Shown here: one piece after another, positions 28,062-36,095 of the stretch
How positions within the stretch are numbered: the stretch's first letter is position 1
How the letters are laid out: the number at the start of each line of letters is the position of its first letter
Assembly (NCBI GenBank): GCA_017938215.1
Contig: JAGBBZ010000024.1
Span: 1-37,643, forward strand
Length of the DNA: 37,643 bases
Reading direction: 5' to 3'
Origin: Eubacterium sp.
GTDB lineage: Bacteria; Bacillota; Clostridia; Lachnospirales; Lachnospiraceae
The notes under the pieces: generated by a model
Database searches by the model: none
The model's input: the letters and a program-made list of their open reading frames with translations, nothing else
What the model was told of the DNA's origin: nothing
Made by a program: the position numbers and the translations under genes

Positions 28062-28493
28062 TTAATCAAATGTGTGCTCCATAATCGGAGTAGGCTCGCT
28101 GGTACTTGGAACGGCGGTGGTTTGTGGTTGCGTTTTCTTTTCTTGATACTCTAAGTAATAGCCCTTTGTGTGATTGTGGGATTCTCTTACGTAGAAAATA
28201 GAAAAGAGTACCACGGCTATCATCATGAGGACAGCAACCAGGATAATAAGCGAAGATACAAACATATTTCGCTTTTTTAGCGAAGAAGGTAAAAGGGTGG
28301 AGAAAGAATCGCGAAATTCCTTTGGTGCTCCAAATTTTTCGGTCAAGTCTGTATATGAACAGTCAGGATGAGATTCATAATAGCACAAAAGTGCATCTTG
28401 CAAATCTGAGATAAACTGCTGTTTTACTTTACGATCTCCACGATATGTCACTTTTACCTGTCGAATGTACTTTTGAATTGCCCGATTACCCAA
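28062..28493 (-). CDS. HAAS-like signalling protein with one membrane segment
   Basis: A 143-residue protein. The N-terminal region (IQKYIRQVKVTYRGDRKVKQ; YYESHPDCSYTDLTEKFGAP) matches the helical HAAS/DUF1700-type pattern known beside PadR regulators, where it is thought to pass signals between a membrane part and the regulator. One membrane segment follows (MFVSSLIILVAVLMMIAVVLF in part), then an outside Thr/Pro-rich tail. GGAGG (28502-28506) lies 8 bases before an in-frame TTG at 28493, better than the ATG at 28508, which has no ribosome site. Directly downstream of padR. Confidence 0.65.
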   Translation of the reverse strand: MGNRAIQKYIRQVKVTYRGDRKVKQQFISDLQDALLCYYESHPDCSYTDLTEKFGAPKEFRDSFSTLLPSSLKKRNMFVSSLIILVAVLMMIAVVLFSIFYVRESHNHTKGYYLEYQEKKTQPQTTAVPSTSEPTPIMEHTFD

Positions 28494-28515
28494 AGTGATG
28501 TCCTCCATAATGATA

Positions 28516-28860
28516 CTAATCCGTACGTTCCATAATCTTGTTGATGGCACTTGTGATGGAATCGTATTCTTCTTTCAACTTAGTCAGATATACGCGTCCT
28601 TCTTCTGTGATTTCGTAATATACGCGTGTTCTACGAACGCCAACTTTTACCTGCTCGCATTTTAAATGTCCGTTTTGCGTCAAACGATATAGCGTGGGGT
28701 ACATAGTTGCTTCTTTCAATTCGTAATCTCCATCGCTGAACTCTGTGAGTTCTTGAGATAACTGATATCCGTATTTTTGACCGGATTGTAGTAAAAGTAG
28801 AAGTACGAGTTCAATCGTACCATGCTTAATGTTATTTTGTTTTCGAGTTTGTTTTGCCAT
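28516..28860 (-). CDS. PadR-family transcriptional regulator
   Basis: A 114-residue winged-helix protein. HGTIELVLLLLLQSGQKYGY is the family start, with the wing region KEATMYPTLYRLTQNGHL and YYEITEEGRVYL. PadR dimers repress operons for efflux pumps or stress and often respond to small toxic molecules. The short C-terminal helix of PadR subfamily 2 is present. ATG 28860 has AAAGGTTGG upstream. It is divergent from the two export modules, so control of both its own operon and those modules is likely. Confidence 0.9.
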   Translation of the reverse strand: MAKQTRKQNNIKHGTIELVLLLLLQSGQKYGYQLSQELTEFSDGDYELKEATMYPTLYRLTQNGHLKCEQVKVGVRRTRVYYEITEEGRVYLTKLKEEYDSITSAINKIMERTD

Positions 28861-28921
28861 ATATAACCAACCTTTTAATTGTGTCGTTGTTTCCACATAA
28901 CTCGTAAGGGAGAATACTTAC

Positions 28922-28950
28922 ATAATATAAGAAAAAAATAAATTTGTCAA
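28922..28950 (-). promoter_or_regulatory. Promoter of the padR operon
   Basis: On the minus strand: TTGACA (28950-28945), 17-base spacer, TATTAT (28927-28922). Confidence 0.75.
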
Positions 28951-28969
28951 GGTAATATTTTAAAAATTC

Positions 28970-28992
28970 AATACTTTTAAATAAATAGTATT
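28970..28992. promoter_or_regulatory. Candidate PadR operator dyad
   Basis: AATACT, 11 bases, AGTATT: a perfect dyad abutting the plus-strand -35 box and 20 bases from the minus-strand -35 box. A further AATACTTA lies at 28913-28920. Assignment to PadR is by position. Confidence 0.45.
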
Positions 28993-29020
28993 TGACAAAA
29001 TACATTTGCTATGATATGAT
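28992..29020 (+). promoter_or_regulatory. Promoter of the repeat-headed export operon
   Basis: Perfect TTGACA (28992-28997), 17-base spacer, TATGAT (29015-29020). The start site would fall near 29027, about 55 bases before repeat copy 1. Confidence 0.8.
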
Positions 29021-29081
29021 TGATGGCAACAACAGGAAAAAGTAAAGCAAGGGAGAATGTCCTGGATGTTGAAATCTTGAT

Positions 29082-29209
29082 GAAAGGAGATGAAAGAATG
29101 TATCAGAAAACCAGAATGCCCGTATTCGAATCTGTTTACAGAGAATGCATTGAAAAAAGCGTTCTTTTCATATGACAGCCATTGGCGTGGCATGTCGAAA
29201 AGAACGCTT
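29082..29209 (+). repeat. 128-bp leader element, copy 1
   Basis: Identical to 32411-32538 at 127 of 128 bases. It contains AAGGAG, a 25-codon ORF (29098-29175) and a long hairpin: AAGCGTTCTTTTC (29157-29169) pairs perfectly with GAAAAGAACGCTT (29197-29209). Inside, GACA/TGTC and GCCA/TGGC pair around a six-base loop. The only difference between the copies (A at 29192, G in copy 2) is the single bulged base, so the fold is unchanged. No U-tract follows, so it is not a standard terminator. Confidence 0.9.
29098..29175 (+). CDS. 25-residue peptide ORF in leader copy 1
   Basis: ATG with AAGGAG eight bases upstream. The peptide begins MYQKTRMPVFES and ends IEKSVLFI-stop; it has one Cys and no signal sequence. 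Its codons for S-V-L-F lie in the left arm of the hairpin and the TGA falls in the fold, so ribosomes on this ORF would open the structure. That fits a leader peptide or translation-coupled switch; a signalling peptide is another option. The frame is open upstream to an ATG at 29023, but that lies at or before the transcript start. Family unknown. Confidence 0.45.
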   Translation: MYQKTRMPVFESVYRECIEKSVLFI

Positions 29210-29269
29210 ATCACAGTGCACTAATAGAATATCATAAAATTAAAATAGATTCAAGAAAGGAATAAAATC

Positions 29270-29623
29270 ATGAAAAAAATTGTAAGTACAGCATTAGCAT
29301 TAGCTTTAGTAGCAACAACTGCAGTGACAGCAAGCGCTGCATCCATCAATGGAGGAGCATTGGATTATACAGGAGGTCAAACTTCTGATGTAGTATATTC
29401 TAGCATTTCAGATGCGAAAACGAATTATGTGGGAACAACGGATGATGGTCAGTATTATAATGTGAAAGCAATTGTAAAAGTTGGCGGTAACACGTACACA
29501 ACTGGTTTCAAACAGGGGAAAGCGTATATTCAAAAATCCAGAAAATGGTATGCCAATGAGAAATCTCGTTATGATTACCAGTTGCGTTATACCGGGTATT
29601 CAAACTGGGGTGGAAATGCCTAA
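29270..29623 (+). CDS. Lactococcin 972-like secreted bacteriocin candidate
   Basis: A 117-residue protein with a signal peptide (IVSTALALALVATTAVTASA, cleavage near ASA-A) and a mature part of about 93 residues without cysteines. Mature start INGGALDYTGG, then VVYSSISDAKTNY, and a late WYANEKSRYDYQ segment follow the general order of the lactococcin 972 family (Gly-Gly near the N-terminus, a VYSxYxD-like strand, aromatic-rich end). The match is weak alone. The two genes downstream look like the export or immunity pair of that bacteriocin group, which makes the call stronger. GAAAGGA lies before ATG. Confidence 0.6.
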   Translation: MKKIVSTALALALVATTAVTASAASINGGALDYTGGQTSDVVYSSISDAKTNYVGTTDDGQYYNVKAIVKVGGNTYTTGFKQGKAYIQKSRKWYANEKSRYDYQLRYTGYSNWGGNA

Positions 29624-29647
29624 TATAGAATAAAATATTTTTGGTTG

Positions 29648-29670
29648 TGCTGCCACATGATGTGGCAGCA
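29648..29670 (+). other. Perfect hairpin between bacteriocin-like gene and transporter genes
   Basis: TGCTGCCACA and TGTGGCAGCA form a perfect 10-bp stem around TGA, with no U-tract. It could shield the 3' end of the upstream message or reduce read-through, giving more secreted protein than transporter. Confidence 0.7.
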
Positions 29671-29694
29671 TGTCAAAATACGGGGAGACGAGAC

Positions 29695-31716
29695 ATGAAA
29701 AAGATATATACATTTTTTTTGTTGGGACAATTGTTGCTTTATTCCATTATTTTTAGTAAGTCTTTGTATGAAGTATATGGCTTGAATCATATCGGAGATA
29801 CGTCACTGTTTGGGTACAAAATTGAGGAGATGACACCTGATGTCATGTCAGAGTTATATGACAATCTGATAAAAGAAAAAGCGGATGTGCAAATTATTAA
29901 AATGCCGATTTCAAAAGAGCGCCCAGAGATTACCAACTATGAAATCTATCATACCAATATAGCTTCCGTATTTCGGTTTGTTGGTCTTTCGGATAACCAA
30001 TATCAATATTACGATTTACAAAAAGAGGATTTTGTTGATGGAACCGGTGTATTTTACACCAGTCTTTCTGAAAAAACGGTGCAGAATATATGTAATAAGA
30101 TCGGAATTGAAGTTACAAAGTATGAGGAAGACTCCTATACTTCGATAAAGACAATATTACTTGCAAATGGTGTGGATTTGCTTATTTTACTAATTGTTAC
30201 ATTCGGTGTAATTGTTGTTTATGTAATTTCCAGAAATAAAGAAAATGCAGTAAAAATACTGTTGGGGTATTCGGGGAAAAAGATTGTAGGAGCAAGAGCG
30301 AAGGAAACTGCTTTTATTGAACTGATTTCTGGTGGATTGGTATGGTTGGGAAATATCATATATTACGGAATACAAGGAAAATGGAGCTTGTTTTTTGGGG
30401 CGTCGATGTTGATGTTTTTGGCTATTATGGCAGGTGTAAATGTACTTCTCATATTCCTGACTAGTAAGCTTTTGAATCGAACCAATGTCGTATCGGCGAT
30501 TAAAAATAAAATGTATTCACCTGTGCTAGATCATGTGATACAGGGAGTGAAAATTGTTCTATGTATAATTGTCTCCGTGTCGATTTCAGGAATGCTGAAT
30601 TATCAACAAAAAATAGCCGATGTGGAAGAGCAGATGGGACGATACAAAGAACTCAATGATTTTTATTGTTCCTATGGATATAATTCGGATGAGTATGACA
30701 AATTATCCGGTGATGATGCACGGTATTTGGAAACTGCGCAAAAGGTGAAGGAAATGTATCAACAGAACCAAGAAACCGCTTATGTGATGCAGGATTGTGT
30801 TCTTACAGCTATTTCGGAGGGGACGGGAATGTCAGAAGAAGATTTTTATGGAATGTCCCGCGAAGAGTTGTTTGCATCTTATGTTAACAATTATGTTATT
30901 GTAAACAGAAAATATTTGGAGGAATACATATCAGTAGAAATTACTTCCGGTAAAATCGATGATGCGGGTTATACGATTTTAGTTCCCGAAAGATATCGAA
31001 GTGTCGAAGAGGATGTTAGAGAACAGTATCGTCTTGTAATTGAAGAAAAAGTGCTGGCGGACAACTATTATGGAAAAAAAGAAAATATTACAATCGATAA
31101 CGAAGATATTAATCTTGTATACATAAAAGATGATTATTCCGTACGTCTGTTGAGTGACTTGCAATATGATTCCATTATGGATATGGAGATTAAAAGCCCA
31201 ATAATTATACTTGATACAGGGGAATTTGCATCAAGTATGTATATGGATATGTTATCGAACTGTCAAATGGCTTTTCGTTTAGGAGACCGAGAAGAATTTT
31301 CGGCTATGATTCATAAGATGGGACTGGAAAAAATCTTTTCGGCAAGAACGATGATGGCACCATTTATGGAAACAATCAGTGGTTACCAATTCGTGATGCA
31401 ACAGAGTAGCTTATTTGTTGTTCTGTTTACTATCACATTGCTCTTTATCATATATATATCCAACCATATTCATTTGAGTGTCAACGCTAAGCAATATGGT
31501 GTGAGATATGAAATGGGGCATAGTAACACTAAAATTCTTTGTGCGGACATTTTAGTTTCCGGCATGTTATGTCTTGTGGGAATCGTCTTTGTAATAGTAA
31601 AGATGGATATTAGGGCTTACGTGGTTTTTGTGGGAATTGATTTTGTAACTCTTTGGGTGTTGTACCGAATTCGTGTGGTGGAGCAAATATATAAAATATT
31701 AAATGGAGGATGTTAG
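29695..31716 (+). CDS. DUF1430-like bacteriocin-associated integral membrane protein
   Basis: A 673-residue membrane protein. One N-terminal segment (TFFLLGQLLLYSIIFS) is followed by SLYEVYGLNHIGD, an outside region, then membrane segments near 170-190 and 215-270, a large second outside domain (about 310-560), and three or four segments at the end. Length, topology and the N-terminal pattern fit the bacteriocin-associated, putative immunity membrane proteins found with lactococcin 972 genes. GGGGAG lies about eight bases before ATG 29695; the longer frame covers the hairpin. Its TAG is one base before the ATG of the ATPase, so they are coupled. Confidence 0.75.
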   Translation: MKKIYTFFLLGQLLLYSIIFSKSLYEVYGLNHIGDTSLFGYKIEEMTPDVMSELYDNLIKEKADVQIIKMPISKERPEITNYEIYHTNIASVFRFVGLSDNQYQYYDLQKEDFVDGTGVFYTSLSEKTVQNICNKIGIEVTKYEEDSYTSIKTILLANGVDLLILLIVTFGVIVVYVISRNKENAVKILLGYSGKKIVGARAKETAFIELISGGLVWLGNIIYYGIQGKWSLFFGASMLMFLAIMAGVNVLLIFLTSKLLNRTNVVSAIKNKMYSPVLDHVIQGVKIVLCIIVSVSISGMLNYQQKIADVEEQMGRYKELNDFYCSYGYNSDEYDKLSGDDARYLETAQKVKEMYQQNQETAYVMQDCVLTAISEGTGMSEEDFYGMSREELFASYVNNYVIVNRKYLEEYISVEITSGKIDDAGYTILVPERYRSVEEDVREQYRLVIEEKVLADNYYGKKENITIDNEDINLVYIKDDYSVRLLSDLQYDSIMDMEIKSPIIILDTGEFASSMYMDMLSNCQMAFRLGDREEFSAMIHKMGLEKIFSARTMMAPFMETISGYQFVMQQSSLFVVLFTITLLFIIYISNHIHLSVNAKQYGVRYEMGHSNTKILCADILVSGMLCLVGIVFVIVKMDIRAYVVFVGIDFVTLWVLYRIRVVEQIYKILNGGC

Positions 31717-31717
31717 G

Positions 31718-32356
31718 ATGGATTGTGTAATAAAAGTGCAGAATCTTTCGAAAAGTTTTAAGGATAAAATCGTATTGGAAAATCTCGAGTTCCAGATTGA
31801 GAAAGGAGAAATGGTTGCAATTACGGGAAAAAGTGGTAGAGGCAAATCTACACTTCTCAATATTTTGGGGCTGATTTCTGAGAAAAGTGCTGGCGATATG
31901 TGGCTCTTCGAACACAAAAATGTGAAGGCTCATTCACGGCAAGCAATGATGTTGCGGAGAGATAAAATTGGATATTTATTTCAAAACTACGGCTTGGTGG
32001 AGGAGGAAACAGTACTTTGGAATCTGAAGCTGGCATTGGAATACAAAAAGTTGAAAGCATCTGAAAAGAAAAAGAAAATTTCCAAAGCGTTGTCGTATGT
32101 GGGGTTAGGTGGATTTGAAAATCACTGCGTATACAAGTTGAGCGGAGGAGAGCAGCAGAGAGTGGCTATGGCAAGAATACTATTACAGGACTGTGAACTG
32201 ATATTGGCAGATGAGCCCACTGGTTCTCTAGATATCGAAAATCGTGATGTGGTTATGAATATCCTTTCTGAAATGAAAAAAAGGGGGAAGACAATTGTTA
32301 TTGTAACACATGATTCATATGTGGCAGAGCAATGTGATCGTATCATTGATTTATAA
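31718..32356 (+). CDS. Lactococcin 972-type bacteriocin export ABC ATPase
   Basis: A 212-residue ATPase. Walker A GKSGRGKST (the usual Ser-Gly is Arg-Gly here), Q-loop YLFQNYGLVEEETV, signature LSGGEQQRVAMARI, Walker B LILADEPTGSLD, H-loop VTHD. The segments FQNYGLVEEETVLWNLKLAL and YKKLKASEKKKKI are close to the ATPases of the lactococcin 972 export group. GGAGG eight bases before ATG 31718 decides the start. It would pair with the membrane protein just upstream for export or self-protection. Confidence 0.85.
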   Translation: MDCVIKVQNLSKSFKDKIVLENLEFQIEKGEMVAITGKSGRGKSTLLNILGLISEKSAGDMWLFEHKNVKAHSRQAMMLRRDKIGYLFQNYGLVEEETVLWNLKLALEYKKLKASEKKKKISKALSYVGLGGFENHCVYKLSGGEQQRVAMARILLQDCELILADEPTGSLDIENRDVVMNILSEMKKRGKTIVIVTHDSYVAEQCDRIIDL

Positions 32357-32410
32357 GTCCTTCATTCGATAAGGGAGAGTCCCTTGCGTGTGTAATTTCG
32401 ATAGATATAA

Positions 32411-32538
32411 GAAAGGAGATGAAAGAATGTATCAGAAAACCAGAATGCCCGTATTCGAATCTGTTTACAGAGAATGCATTGAAAAAAGCGTTCTTTTCAT
32501 ATGACAGCCATTGGCGTGGCGTGTCGAAAAGAACGCTT
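32411..32538 (+). repeat. 128-bp leader element, copy 2
   Basis: Second copy of the 29082-29209 element, differing at one base (G at 32521). It sits 54 bases after the ATPase stop and ahead of a different secreted-protein gene. A small AAGGGA-GAG-TCCCTT hairpin lies upstream at 32371-32385; the matching place before copy 1 has a diverged AAGGGAGAATGTCCT. No separate promoter is evident, so it is probably transcribed from 28992. Confidence 0.9.
32427..32504 (+). CDS. 25-residue peptide ORF in leader copy 2
   Basis: Same peptide as in copy 1, residue for residue, with the same AAGGAG spacing and the stop in the same place of the hairpin. Exact keeping of peptide, ribosome site and fold in two places argues for a shared function or a very recent duplication. 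Confidence 0.45.
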   Translation: MYQKTRMPVFESVYRECIEKSVLFI

Positions 32539-32627
32539 GAGAAAAAACTCAAGGTAAGTATAGCATTGGGTGAGAGGTAATGCAAGGATAAAAGAATGTA
32601 TATAGTACATAAAGGAGATTTTTAATT

Positions 32628-33197
32628 ATGAAAAAGAAAATATTAATGAAATTGAGTGCAACTATGGTGGCTATGGCGATTGTAGTAGGAAGCATGTCAG
32701 CTAATTCAATCACTGCATCGGCAGCAGTGGAAGACTATTATACTAGCGATAAGGAGAGCGTTTCTACACCAGATGGTAACAACCATAAGTTGTATAGTTA
32801 CACAGAAAACCAGACATATGGTAAACTGTCAGGAAAATCGCGAAAAGTAAAATTTTATGTATACGCAAAATATGTGGGAAATACAAAAGTAGAAAGTATT
32901 AAATGTAGTTGGAAAATTGGTGCTAAGATGAGAAGTAGCGCAACGGTTACGGCTACTGTTGGTGTTACTGGAAATTCGTATACTGCCTCGGCATCATCAA
33001 GTTCTACATGGCAAAATGTAACAACAGAAGAAAAATACTGGTTACATACATCAGGTACCAAAGTTTCATATGAAGATTCGAATTTTGTAATCTCTCCGGA
33101 TTGCGATTTATCTGGCTTTAACGATTGGGTAACCACAACTGCAACTGTGAAACTAAAAGGATATGCGAAGAAAGCAAGTATTTCAAGTACAACCTAA
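32628..33197 (+). CDS. Secreted protein of unknown family, module 2
   Basis: A 189-residue protein with a signal peptide (cleavage near SITASA-A) and a mature part of about 156 residues, beta-rich with many Ser/Thr (TVTATVGVTGNSYTASASSS), two cysteines (IKCSWKI, PDCDLSG) and a basic tail (LKGYAKKASISSTT). No known catalytic motif. Its place matches that of the bacteriocin-like gene in module 1: after the 128-bp element, before a hairpin, ahead of ABC transporter genes. AAAGGAG precedes ATG. A secreted toxin or bacteriocin is an inference from that parallel. Confidence 0.7.
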   Translation: MKKKILMKLSATMVAMAIVVGSMSANSITASAAVEDYYTSDKESVSTPDGNNHKLYSYTENQTYGKLSGKSRKVKFYVYAKYVGNTKVESIKCSWKIGAKMRSSATVTATVGVTGNSYTASASSSSTWQNVTTEEKYWLHTSGTKVSYEDSNFVISPDCDLSGFNDWVTTTATVKLKGYAKKASISSTT

Positions 33198-33215
33198 TGA
33201 GGATTCACTATGTTA

Positions 33216-33247
33216 TGCGGTCGCTGAAGTTTTAGTCGGCGACCGCA
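33216..33247 (+). other. Near-perfect hairpin after the module 2 secreted gene
   Basis: TGCGGTCGCTGA pairs with TCGGCGACCGCA (one T-G pair) around an 8-base loop, with no U-tract after it (ATAAAAAC follows). Same position and style as 29648-29670 in module 1, but unrelated sequence. Confidence 0.7.
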
Positions 33248-33296
33248 ATAAAAACAAAAAAATAGATTTGGTGTAAATTACAGAATGGAGAGTATT

Positions 33297-34256
33297 ATGT
33301 CAGTAAAAAAAGGTCTTATTGTTTTGGGTGTTTTTATGATGTTAGTAACTGGGTGTGGCGAAGAAAAAAAGGCTTCAGATGTAAGAGTAAAGCCCACTGA
33401 TGATGCACAAAGAGATAAAAAGGTAGAATACTGTGATGATGTGCTGGTATCTGAAGATGAAAAAATTATTTATAATATATATGCTCAAAAGCTAGGAGTA
33501 TATGATGAAAAGAAGAATAGTTGGCAATCCATTCATAAGAACGAAAATGAATTTGCATATAAAACAATAGGTGAAAATGATATGTTTACAGTGGGAAATT
33601 CTAACTACAATTATTTTGCTGTTATGCAAAGAGAAAAAGATGGGTTGCATAAAAAGATGGAGATTCCTCGAAAGGATTCAGCAATGCCGCTAGGGGAATA
33701 TGAGGGAGAATATTATTTTTTGTATAATGTAGATGACCTTAGCGAAAAGCTAGAGCGTAAAATCGTTAAATGGAATCAGGAAGACAATCAATTTGTAGAT
33801 ATCTTAAAATTAGAAGATAAATTAGTGGCAAGTGGTGTAATTGTTAAAGATAAGATTTATTATGCCGAATACCAAACTAAGTTAGATTCGTACCAGTTAT
33901 ATGAATATAATATAAAGAAGAAGAGCAACAAGATAGTGAGGGAGGATTTGCCTACAGACTATCTATATAATTTGGATGAATCTCTTATATGGAATGATGG
34001 AAAAGGGAATATCTATAGTTTTCGTGGTCAACTGTATTCTTTGGGAAAACAGGAATCGGAAGTTGATTATAATTCAGAGTATGGCTTGTTTTTTCAAACA
34101 TACGCTGATAAGTCTAAGGTTCTTGTTTGCGACGTGTGGGATGCAAAGAGTGGAGAAAAAAAGAAAACAGTAGAGCAATTCATAGGATATGACATAGAAG
34201 ACGACGAGTTGAAGTTATATTGTAATTACGGGGTTGAGAAAATTGGATTAAAATAA
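33297..34256 (+). CDS. Lipoprotein of module 2
   Basis: A 319-residue protein with a type II signal peptide (VLGVFMMLVTGC; lipid-bearing Cys at about residue 20). The mature part is acidic-basic mixed and shows repeating strand patterns (IIYNIYAQKLGVYDEKKNSW; YYFLYNVDD; NIYSFRGQLYSLGK), suggestive of a propeller-like fold. The gene is AT-rich. GGAG six bases upstream supports ATG 33297. Between a secreted protein and its ABC genes, it could be an immunity lipoprotein or an accessory binding protein. Confidence 0.7.
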   Translation: MSVKKGLIVLGVFMMLVTGCGEEKKASDVRVKPTDDAQRDKKVEYCDDVLVSEDEKIIYNIYAQKLGVYDEKKNSWQSIHKNENEFAYKTIGENDMFTVGNSNYNYFAVMQREKDGLHKKMEIPRKDSAMPLGEYEGEYYFLYNVDDLSEKLERKIVKWNQEDNQFVDILKLEDKLVASGVIVKDKIYYAEYQTKLDSYQLYEYNIKKKSNKIVREDLPTDYLYNLDESLIWNDGKGNIYSFRGQLYSLGKQESEVDYNSEYGLFFQTYADKSKVLVCDVWDAKSGEKKKTVEQFIGYDIEDDELKLYCNYGVEKIGLK

Positions 34257-34279
34257 ATTGGAAAGGAGTGGAGATAGAA

Positions 34280-34882
34280 ATGCTGAGTTTTAACAATGTA
34301 ACATATCAGATTTCTAATAAGTGTATACTAAAGGATTTTAATTATAGATTTGATACTGGCGTGTACATCTTACAAGGGGAAAGTGGAATTGGAAAAACCA
34401 CATTATTGAATCTGTCATGCGGATATCTATTGCCGGATGCAGGTACGATTGAACGAAAGAGGAACAGTCGTATTTCTTATATGTTTCAAGAAGATATGTT
34501 ATTTCATAATTTGACAGTAAGAGAAAATATGAATATAAAGTGTAATGCTGTTGATATGAATGATGATGTAAGAGAGGGGAAAATTGAGCAATACTGCAGT
34601 AATTTCAAAATAAGTGATAAAATGGATTGCTTGGTTAGTAGTCTTTCAGGCGGAGAGAAAAAAAGGGTTCAGTTAGCGATGTTAGCAATGGATGATTGTG
34701 AGATTTGGCTTTTGGACGAACCAATTGCTAATTTGGATTCAGAGAATTGCGCATTGATTATGGATTATTTATTTTCATTAAATAGTAAATTAATTTTGAT
34801 TGTAAGTCATCAATTTATCGAGAAGAATAATCAAAAGTTTACACTATTAGAAATGAAGGATGGAGGAATTAATGAAAAGTAG
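34280..34882 (+). CDS. ABC transporter ATP-binding protein, module 2
   Basis: A 200-residue ATPase of the MacB/LolD-like kind. Walker A GESGIGKTT, Q-loop YMFQEDMLFHNLTV, signature LSGGEKKRVQLA, Walker B IWLLDEPIANLD, H-loop VSHQ. It is only loosely like the module 1 ATPase, so the modules were not made by simple duplication. AAGGAG and GGAG lie before ATG 34280. It overlaps the permease gene by 11 bases. Confidence 0.9.
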   Translation: MLSFNNVTYQISNKCILKDFNYRFDTGVYILQGESGIGKTTLLNLSCGYLLPDAGTIERKRNSRISYMFQEDMLFHNLTVRENMNIKCNAVDMNDDVREGKIEQYCSNFKISDKMDCLVSSLSGGEKKRVQLAMLAMDDCEIWLLDEPIANLDSENCALIMDYLFSLNSKLILIVSHQFIEKNNQKFTLLEMKDGGINEK

Positions 34883-36095
34883 AGGGAAAGATACACGAAG
34901 ACTTATATTAAAGAAAACAGGGACATACCTAAGAAATGCAATTGTCATTTTTTTGCTAACGCTTGCCGCTTTGGTATATGGAATTATATTCTTTTGGAAT
35001 TTTCGACAGGAGAACGATAAAAATTTCACGCAAAACGATATGGTTCATTTTGTTCAAGTAACAGGAAAAATGGACGAAAATAATTATCTGAGTTTGACCA
35101 ATAAGGATTATCGTCGTATTTATGAGATAGAAAATGCTGAAACAAAGTCGTTTACTGAAATTGCATTTTATCAATTTGTGGGAGCAGTGGAACAACAAAC
35201 GGAGGAACCAATTCTATTGGTTGCAATTGATCCTGTTCATTCCTCATACATTTCAGAGGAAAAAATGCAAGATGGTATTTATTATACCAATGAACACGTT
35301 GAGAAAGAGATACTAAATCTGAAAATCCCCAATGTAGATGTGGATGAAGATGGTAATTTGCATTCTCGTGAATCTGTGATTGTGAAACGACCCTTGATGC
35401 ATTCAATTAAGTCTGAAAATGAATCTGATTTGTTGCAGATAAGGAGTGAGGATGAACCAGTACAAACTATATTTGTGACGTATAATACGTTATTGGAAAT
35501 TATGAAACAGGCAGGTTTGCTAGAAGAAAGTGTAAAGGATATTACTAGTGAATCTGTGCCAGAAGTACTTCACCCAAGTGATATTATAGTATATATTGAT
35601 GATATGTACTGCATCGATGATTGTGCACAGGCTTTACTTGATGACAATTATTTGCTGAATTATACATTTGAGGCGTTTGATTCGTTAAGCGATTCGTTAA
35701 AAAAATCTTCTGTCTTTTTTGTTGTATTAGTGATTTTATTATTGGCAACTTCTGGAATTAATGTTTATTTGTCTTTTTGTTCATATCTACAAATGCAACA
35801 AAAGGATATGGGCATCCTAAAATTTTACGGGTACTCCAAAGAACAGTTGTACAATATATATAAGCAAAATATCAATGTGGTTTTTGTTATATGTTTTGGA
35901 GCGTTACTAGTTTATTTGTTACTACTTGGATTTCTTATAAACATGGATAATATATGGAAAGTAATACCGATTATGGTAATTTTTGTAGTAGTTATCCTAA
36001 TAATATTGAGAGGTTTAATTTTGAAGTTGAGTTTAAAAAGAATGGTAGATAAAGAGATTTTGTGTTTGGTCAAAAGTTCGAAAGAATTTGAATGA
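34872..36095 (+). CDS. FtsX/MacB-like ABC permease, module 2
   Basis: A 407-residue membrane protein. One N-terminal segment (AIVIFLLTLAALVYGIIFFW), a long outside domain (about 50-275), then three segments (FVVLVILLLATSGINVYLSF; VVFVICFGALLVYLLLLGF; VIPIMVIFVVVILIILRGL). QKDMGILKFYGYSKEQL between the first two is the usual FtsX coupling loop. This topology fits mechanotransmission-type exporters of peptides or of lipoprotein-bound cargo. GGAGG five bases before ATG 34872. Last gene of module 2. Confidence 0.85.
   Translation: MKSRGKDTRRLILKKTGTYLRNAIVIFLLTLAALVYGIIFFWNFRQENDKNFTQNDMVHFVQVTGKMDENNYLSLTNKDYRRIYEIENAETKSFTEIAFYQFVGAVEQQTEEPILLVAIDPVHSSYISEEKMQDGIYYTNEHVEKEILNLKIPNVDVDEDGNLHSRESVIVKRPLMHSIKSENESDLLQIRSEDEPVQTIFVTYNTLLEIMKQAGLLEESVKDITSESVPEVLHPSDIIVYIDDMYCIDDCAQALLDDNYLLNYTFEAFDSLSDSLKKSSVFFVVLVILLLATSGINVYLSFCSYLQMQQKDMGILKFYGYSKEQLYNIYKQNINVVFVICFGALLVYLLLLGFLINMDNIWKVIPIMVIFVVVILIILRGLILKLSLKRMVDKEILCLVKSSKEFE

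Follow-up and report, generated by a model that had tools for sequence, protein, structure and literature searches.

We analysed a 37,643-nt stretch of DNA from Eubacterium sp. (contig JAGBBZ010000024.1; hereafter the window) in which a 128-bp element occurs twice, each time ahead of a module of genes for secreted proteins. The element looks like a cis-regulatory leader with one function per strand: the sense strand carries an upstream open reading frame (uORF) that runs up to or into a hairpin, and the opposite strand carries a predicted promoter for a short antisense RNA, for which the same hairpin would serve as terminator. Judged from sequence, this two-strand architecture is highly probable. 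That the element is a chromosomal leader with the logic of CopA-tap and Sok-mok, tuning secreted-protein operons after transcription initiation, is the explanation we favour, and we put it tentatively, at just short of an even chance.

Two near-identical leaders in the window

A repeat scan (minimum 30 nt, seed 14) returned a single family of direct repeats of at least 30 nt in the window: positions 29082–29209 and 32411–32538, each 128 nt long, with a spacing of 3329 and identity at 127 of 128 bases. The sole mismatch, A at 29192 against G at 32521, is bulged in both predicted folds, so that the repeat and its single difference are as the initial annotation described them. Both copies have a ribosome site (AAAGGAG) followed by an ATG, together spanning 29083–29100 and 32412–32429 on the plus strand, and from this ATG (29098; 32427) a uORF of 25 codons (MYQKTRMPVFESVYRECIEKSVLFI) runs to a TGA (29098–29175 and 32427–32504, plus strand). 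The stop codon lies inside the left side of a hairpin at 29157–29209 and 32486–32538 (predicted −27.1 kcal/mol), the left arm of which contains the last sense codons of the uORF; all these parts were found at the places first reported. The hairpin is a structure of the sense RNA and, with the T-run opposite 29153–29158 in copy 1, a likely terminator for the minus strand. A 44-codon frame through copy 1 (MKECIRKPEC...) was considered as the uORF and dropped, because its ATG touches the ribosome site. The genes led by the two copies are indeed unrelated: their 117-aa and 189-aa products fall into different blastp clusters (E 0.01).

A leader family within the genus

The initial annotation had proposed a genome search with the 128-bp sequence and a covariance model, together with a list of the genes that follow each hit; this search was carried out and yielded a family of leaders in the same genus. 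The leader DNA matched 12 of 195 relatives, its own genome included, all of them in this genus. A 22-base word from the uORF end matched three public records, two of which (L022 and L023) the covariance model confirms, and the third (L024) not. Of 39 genomes of the genus, the model, built from 20 copies, matched 17 at E 0.1 and 16 (own included) below 0.001. In the family, 3 of 397 sampled genomes (own included) had matches, and in the order 5 of 392, namely the own genome, one of the same genus and three (L117–L119) with matches resembling chance or gene ends; both wider searches ran under stricter filters, at which weak matches were lost. Because the model finds relatives in other genomes, the repeat cannot be put down to chance and extends beyond the window.

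From 34 fetched regions, 42 hits less three echoes left 39 for analysis; the relatives are draft assemblies, and the copies are related to one another and not independent. The own genome, as far as it is assembled (completeness 68.23, 40 contigs), contains only the two leaders, and two more matches are their hairpins read on the other strand. Genome G028 has nine places, of which one is an opposite-strand echo and another is a hairpin that lacks the uORF.

By blastn, the leader had no match in collections of plasmids and phages, and one 22-base leader word had no exact match in viral contigs. An Rfam scan of 28400–33400 returned three matches at E 5, none of which reached its gathering score, and a narrower scan gave the same picture. 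The only Rfam match over the hairpin, RF02445 (SpR14), scored 29.7 bits against a gathering score of 50 (E 0.29 in 5 kb, 0.014 in 241 bases) and was treated as chance. SpR14 was ruled out, as none of the 19 locations that the genus listing gives for RF02445 coincides with a leader copy; its model also matches 3 of 14 control genomes (E. coli, Lactococcus lactis and Sulfolobus acidocaldarius). Among the open-access papers listed by the literature searches, none reports a leader of this type.

The uORF seems to be kept in frame up to the hairpin

Across the family the uORF is 11–32 codons long, and the distance from its ATG to the hairpin is 37, 40, 43, 46, 61 or 76 nt in most copies, that is, it changes in steps of three. 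A ribosome site was found in 37 of the 39 copies, and any ATG within the 12-base stretch after it was accepted as the start, as L072 and L089 need. With these starts, the uORF stop falls at −3 to +24 of the hairpin start in 28 of 37 copies, compared with 8/37 and 5/37 in the shifted frames, which ties the uORF to the hairpin as had been supposed; no p-value is given for this count because the copies are related. Nine copies fail (L073, L075, L078, L088, L092, L095, L100 and the weak hits L096 and L098), and for L085 and L087 it is a different frame whose stop falls in this range.

In an alignment of 20 rows, mean identity is 94% across the 15 columns that run from GGAG to ATG, and 53% in the uORF middle. 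Many of the peptides end in SVLFI or a relative of it, while in six copies the stop stands one base ahead of the hairpin, so that these last residues are absent. In four groups of close copies (pairs pooled), replacement and silent differences are equally frequent (pN 0.137 versus pS 0.147). As the frame holds and pN is close to pS, it seems to be translation up to the hairpin, and not the peptide, that has been kept. By eye, the peptide is charged and has no signal peptide.

A nearly constant hairpin on the sense strand

The hairpin has a nearly constant stem of 11 bp with compensatory changes. In an alignment of 42 rows, which was fitted to the covariance model and is hence biased towards it, pairing holds in 94.8% of cells and 12 of the 15 stem pairs have changed on both sides, a result that 0 of 500 shuffles equalled. 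In the first 36 of these rows, the sense strand has G-U in 29 cells; in 7 cells it has A-C or C-A, pairs that would be wobbles on the opposite strand alone. The two arms are 99% and 96% identical in the 20-row alignment, far above the uORF middle, which suggests that a partner, RNA or protein, recognises the stem by its sequence. In the own incomplete genome, all four matches to the 11-base arm lie within the two leader elements.

Read by eye, the 38 downstream sequences show no sense-strand T-run behind the hairpin except in L092, and an intrinsic terminator or attenuator on that strand is disfavoured for this reason. Masking of the gene's ribosome site was likewise rejected: in a local fold model of 32 of the 39 copies, accessibility stayed within 0.15 in 29 of the 32 when the left arm was blocked.

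Several unusual copies were seen. L092:379–483 and L100:6183–6297 are diverged, with stems that differ in sequence yet still pair, and L092, the only copy with the sense-strand T-run, might be a true sense attenuator. L088:6105–6218 has a truncated right arm and a membrane protein downstream, is 95.5% like L078 up to that point and looks like a decayed leader. At L071:483–590 (G028 contig 27) a hairpin without uORF is followed by a 191-aa protein (718–1293), probably the one LytTR member among the first genes, after which come a complete leader and an exported-protein module; this could be a self-controlled regulator. In G003 contig 81, near the contig start (bases 60–105), two 11-base arms face each other in an order reversed from that of the leader and thus form another hairpin.

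A predicted convergent promoter on the opposite strand

Boxes of the sigma-A type, which the initial annotation had not noted, stand on the minus strand 16–22 bp beyond the hairpin and point back at it. They were scored with a matrix not trained on these genomes. By distance, the mean best score of 38 of the 39 copies (L090 out) is 3.64 at 15–19 bp and 3.16 at 20–24 bp, and lies between −0.57 and 0.52 at all other distances. Within the 16–22 bp range, the mean best score of 27 copies is 6.35, against 1.00 ± 0.53 and a maximum of 2.59 in 500 shuffles, and scores of at least 6 occur in 17 of the 27, against a mean of 1.4 and a maximum of 5 in 300 shuffles; a comparable peak is absent from the sense strand. 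We chose these 27 from the 39 by leaving out the orthologous repeats L067, L069, L075, L084, L086 and L087, the copies L088, L090 and L071:483, and the weak hits L096–L098.

The promoter goes together with a T-run. In the set of 38, copies with at least five T among the six minus-strand bases after the hairpin have a promoter score of at least 6 in 15 of 20 cases, and those with fewer T in 6 of 18. Hairpin and T-run thus look like the terminator for the minus-strand promoter, and an antisense RNA of about 70 nt over the uORF end and the hairpin is predicted.

In copy 1 of the window the minus-strand boxes read TTGAAT-17-TATTCT (29226–29254; −10 at 29226–29231, −35 at 29249–29254; z 1.1), and in copy 2 TTGCAT-17-TATACT (32557–32585; −10 at 32557–32562, −35 at 32580–32585; z 2.0), the z scores having been computed for 35 of the 39 copies (L096–L098 and L090 out). 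With ends placed by the boxes and the T-run, the predicted minus-strand RNAs would be about 70 nt (29150–29219; fold −28.1 kcal/mol) and about 72 nt (32479–32550; −28.9 kcal/mol). A generic terminator scan, which allows loops of 3–8 only, does not pick up the hairpin, as its rules admit neither the bulge nor the size. With the antisense promoter, the most likely mechanism changes from the one first suggested.

Most leaders precede genes for predicted exported proteins

The initial annotation had taken the leader to be common to unrelated secreted-protein modules, and the family bears this out. The first gene is signal-peptide-like after 30 of the 35 copies that have a called downstream gene, and in 29 of the 35 it also lacks a later membrane segment, compared with 108 of 383 other genes at the same loci (Fisher p 2.4e-10); the gene caller and the signal-peptide call, a simple hydrophobicity rule, are crude, and the control genes come from the very loci of the test genes. 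Five copies miss: L089 (score 1.94, limit 2.0), L094, the hairpin-only L071:483 and the weak hits L096 and L097. For L094 the called gene has 374 aa, and a shorter frame upstream of it starts signal-peptide-like; for L097 the next gene is on the opposite strand, whereas every other copy with a called gene is followed by one in the sense direction. L088, the copy without part of its right arm, passes the loose rule although its product is a membrane protein.

The first-gene products are 112–652 aa long. Thirty-one of them form 19 clusters (blastp E 0.01), 17 of which look exported; the other two are the L088 product and the protein after L071:483. Pfam assigns a subtilase domain to two first genes and a BspA-type LRR, LytTR, C39-like peptidase and helveticin J domain to one each. 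In many modules an exported protein of 112–150 aa comes first, followed by lipoprotein-like or membrane proteins, and among 31 scanned, second or third genes include ABC ATPases in 6 and FtsX in 2. The small first-gene proteins, which match no accepted family, may be bacteriocin-like. The genes behind the leader are candidates for a secreted arsenal, most of them without a known family, for which the leader offers a search handle. Weak hits aside, the spacer from hairpin to gene start is 37–219 nt.

Mechanism and alternative explanations

The statistics above support the uORF frame, the hairpin, the position of the antisense promoter and the association with exported-protein genes as properties of the sequence. 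On this footing we propose that the uORF would be translated up to or into the left arm, where the terminating ribosome would hold the arm open, and that the convergent promoter would give the antisense RNA that ends at the same hairpin. This RNA, complementary to the uORF end and the hairpin, would pair with the leader hairpin to hairpin, to an extent that depends on how much sense RNA there is relative to antisense RNA and on whether the uORF end holds a ribosome. Pairing would lower the output of the secreted-protein operon through cleavage of the duplex or early loss of the transcript, and costly or toxic exported proteins would thus be held back for as long as the sense promoter is not strong. 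Production of the antisense RNA, its pairing with the leader, and the direction and route by which it acts are the inferred parts of this scheme. Because the sense strand lacks a T-run and the distance to the gene is large for reinitiation, we favour duplex formation with cleavage or early transcript loss.

The leader would act after transcription initiation. Copy 2 has no good sense promoter and stands 55 nt downstream of module 1's ATPase gene. A good sense promoter is likewise absent from L022, L070, L072, L078 and L100, and all six copies stand 16–88 nt behind a gene on the same strand; action after initiation is therefore likely. In the window, the leader probably lets module 2 be tuned separately from module 1.

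Several points weigh against the proposed antisense control. The 16–22 bp range was picked after the distance profile was known. The match between T-run and promoter is incomplete, with 6 of 18 T-poor copies having a promoter and 5 of 20 T-rich copies none, and the T-run is not independent of the AAA codons of the uORF. The related copies L082, L084, L086 and L087 have no good promoter or T-run and yet keep uORF and hairpin, which means that the sense part can persist where the antisense signals are absent. A generic promoter scan of the window region found no excess (20 versus 17.3 in shuffles), and the two antisense promoters of the window, below its limit and weak on their own, are not listed in it; the case for them rests on the family. 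The spacer is long for direct coupling of the mok-hok type or for reinitiation, and the leader is not predicted to mask the ribosome site of the gene.

Other explanations were weighed as well. The leader might sense ribosomes without any RNA partner, stalling at the uORF or loss of its translation (for instance through ribosome-targeting antibiotics) altering leader folding or decay, as in toiL-topAI or erm. This would account for a frame that is kept without its peptide, for a stop at or in the hairpin and for the four related copies that have dropped the antisense signals. We nevertheless consider it unlikely, although with some room left for it, since no alternative fold hides the gene's ribosome site (accessibility changes by more than 0.15 in 3 of 32), the sense strand apart from L092 lacks a T-run after the hairpin, and the positioned minus-strand promoter is left unexplained. 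That promoter is central to transcriptional interference, in which convergent polymerases collide and the hairpin merely stops the antisense polymerase before it reaches the sense promoter. The narrow range of promoter-to-hairpin distances and the co-occurrence of promoter and T-run agree with such collisions; the uORF frame, the wobble bias towards the sense strand and the near-constant stem are not explained by them, and we give interference a small chance. Only a shade less probable is that the minus-strand RNA acts in trans as a small RNA, or that one RNA-binding protein is shared, with the leaders as common targets. A shared partner would keep the stem constant, even in copies whose uORF middles hardly align, and would find eight places in G028 (the opposite-strand echo uncounted), but the own incomplete genome shows no further exact targets beyond the two elements, and the stems of L092 and L100 have changed with compensation.

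The initial annotation had considered a mobile or recombining cassette head, and homology within genomes does often end at or near the hairpin, so that recombination is possible as history; mobility finds no blastn match in plasmids or phages. Homology is lost at or near the right arm not only in the window (127/128) but also in L074/L077 (100% over 245 bp), L078/L088 (95.5% over 156 bp) and L070/L081 (91% over 93 bp), as would follow if the hairpin were a breakpoint for swapping modules behind one leader and regulation were secondary. Against this, homology runs past the hairpin in L072/L073 and L071/L081 and stops in the loop in L083/L094, the genes called downstream are in sense orientation (the weak L097 aside), and frame, fold and promoter are kept, which makes the cassette as the main explanation improbable. 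Relatives of the permease of the L068 type occur at 15 places, with a leader hit at 4 and none at 11 within the regions fetched; at three of the 11 (L102, L107 and L108) the small exported-protein gene is present with no leader ahead of it, and in L107 a TTGACA/TATAAT pair stands, by eye, directly before the gene. As homologous modules exist without it, the leader is a separable control part that can be gained, lost or swapped. Least probable of all, and very much so, is action of the uORF product itself, as a pheromone-like signal or an arrest peptide ending in SVLFI. The recurrence of that ending in many copies would fit, and the signalling peptide had been among the first suggestions; it is opposed by the equal frequency of replacement and silent differences, by the six copies that stop before the ending and by the want of a signal peptide.

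If antisense control of the leader holds, logic of the plasmid and toxin type has been taken up as an interchangeable front part of chromosomal operons for exported proteins, among them some subtilases and small proteins with ABC transporters. A bolder extension, which we think unlikely, is a chromosomal regulon run by RNA: each operon would have its own CopA- or Sok-like unit, and the constant stem would let antisense RNAs pair across the leaders of different copies. The cell would then adjust its secreted arsenal as a whole through the relative amounts of sense and antisense RNA and through the passage of ribosomes over the uORFs.

Genes around the leaders in the window

Copy 1 has a strong sense promoter of its own, TTGACA-17-TATGAT with a TG before the −10 box (28992–29020, plus strand), with 11 of 12 matches and z 3.8 against shuffles. 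All genes of the two modules are on the plus strand. Module 1 begins with the 117-aa protein (29270–29623), which has a signal-peptide-like N-terminus, no Pfam hit and a sub-cut-off match to JUQZ_fam_ocin (E 0.0059). It is followed by a 673-aa membrane protein (29695–31716; no family at E 0.001, FtsX E 0.29) and an ABC ATPase (31718–32356) that matches TIGR03608, putative bacteriocin export, with 277.6 bits (cut-off 254.85). Yet the 117-aa protein encoded ahead of this ATPase falls in no accepted bacteriocin family. Module 2 opens with the 189-aa protein (32628–33197), again with a signal-peptide-like N-terminus and with a weak match to the YxeA family (TIGR01655, E 0.00096, below cut-off), and continues at 33285–36095 with a 323-aa protein that by eye has a lipoprotein-like start, an ABC ATPase and an FtsX-type permease.

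Divergent from copy 1 is a gene for a PadR-family regulator (28516–28860, minus strand; PF03551, E 6.6e-18). Beside it, a 162-aa protein (28062–28550, minus strand) has a borderline match to DUF6120 (E 4.4e-6, 27.1 bits, cut-off 27). In L067, L068, L069, L075 and L099 a divergent frame of 115–116 codons lies 211–360 nt upstream of the leader; the PadR scan covered the window.

Comparison with known systems

Leader frames combined with antisense RNAs occur in plasmid copy control, in the control of pheromone plasmids and in the silencing of toxins. In plasmid R1, copA/tap/repA has a small leader peptide gene on the sense RNA and a small antisense RNA opposite (PMC5883639). The present leader is like CopA-tap in having a leader frame over which an antisense RNA is predicted; it differs in being chromosomal, in standing as several copies before unrelated export genes and in the 37–219 nt that separate its frame from the gene under control. 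In hok/mok/Sok, a short antisense RNA overlaps a uORF that lies in a long 5' leader (PMC4147584). This RNA blocks the leader frame. The overlap is again matched by prediction here, whereas the uORF and the gene behind it do not overlap and the first genes encode exported proteins of 112–652 aa. The small hydrophobic toxin of type I toxin–antitoxin systems was not found among the first genes, which encode larger exported proteins, with two subtilases, an LRR protein and unknowns.

A similar case is pCF10, where the head of the long Gram-positive prgQ operon carries a hairpin (IRS1) and an antisense RNA, anti-Q (PMC8265641). Anti-Q helps a terminator to form; in pCF10 the hairpin ends the sense transcript, and a peptide is a pheromone. 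Unlike in pCF10, the sense strand of the present leader has no T-run and its peptide drifts. The prgQ arrangement is that of a short frame with a convergent promoter. For the toiL-topAI uORF of E. coli (PMC12121999) and the erm leaders (PMC11264731), leader folding is set by the translation state of the uORF; masking of the gene's ribosome site belongs to those systems and is not predicted for the leader described here.

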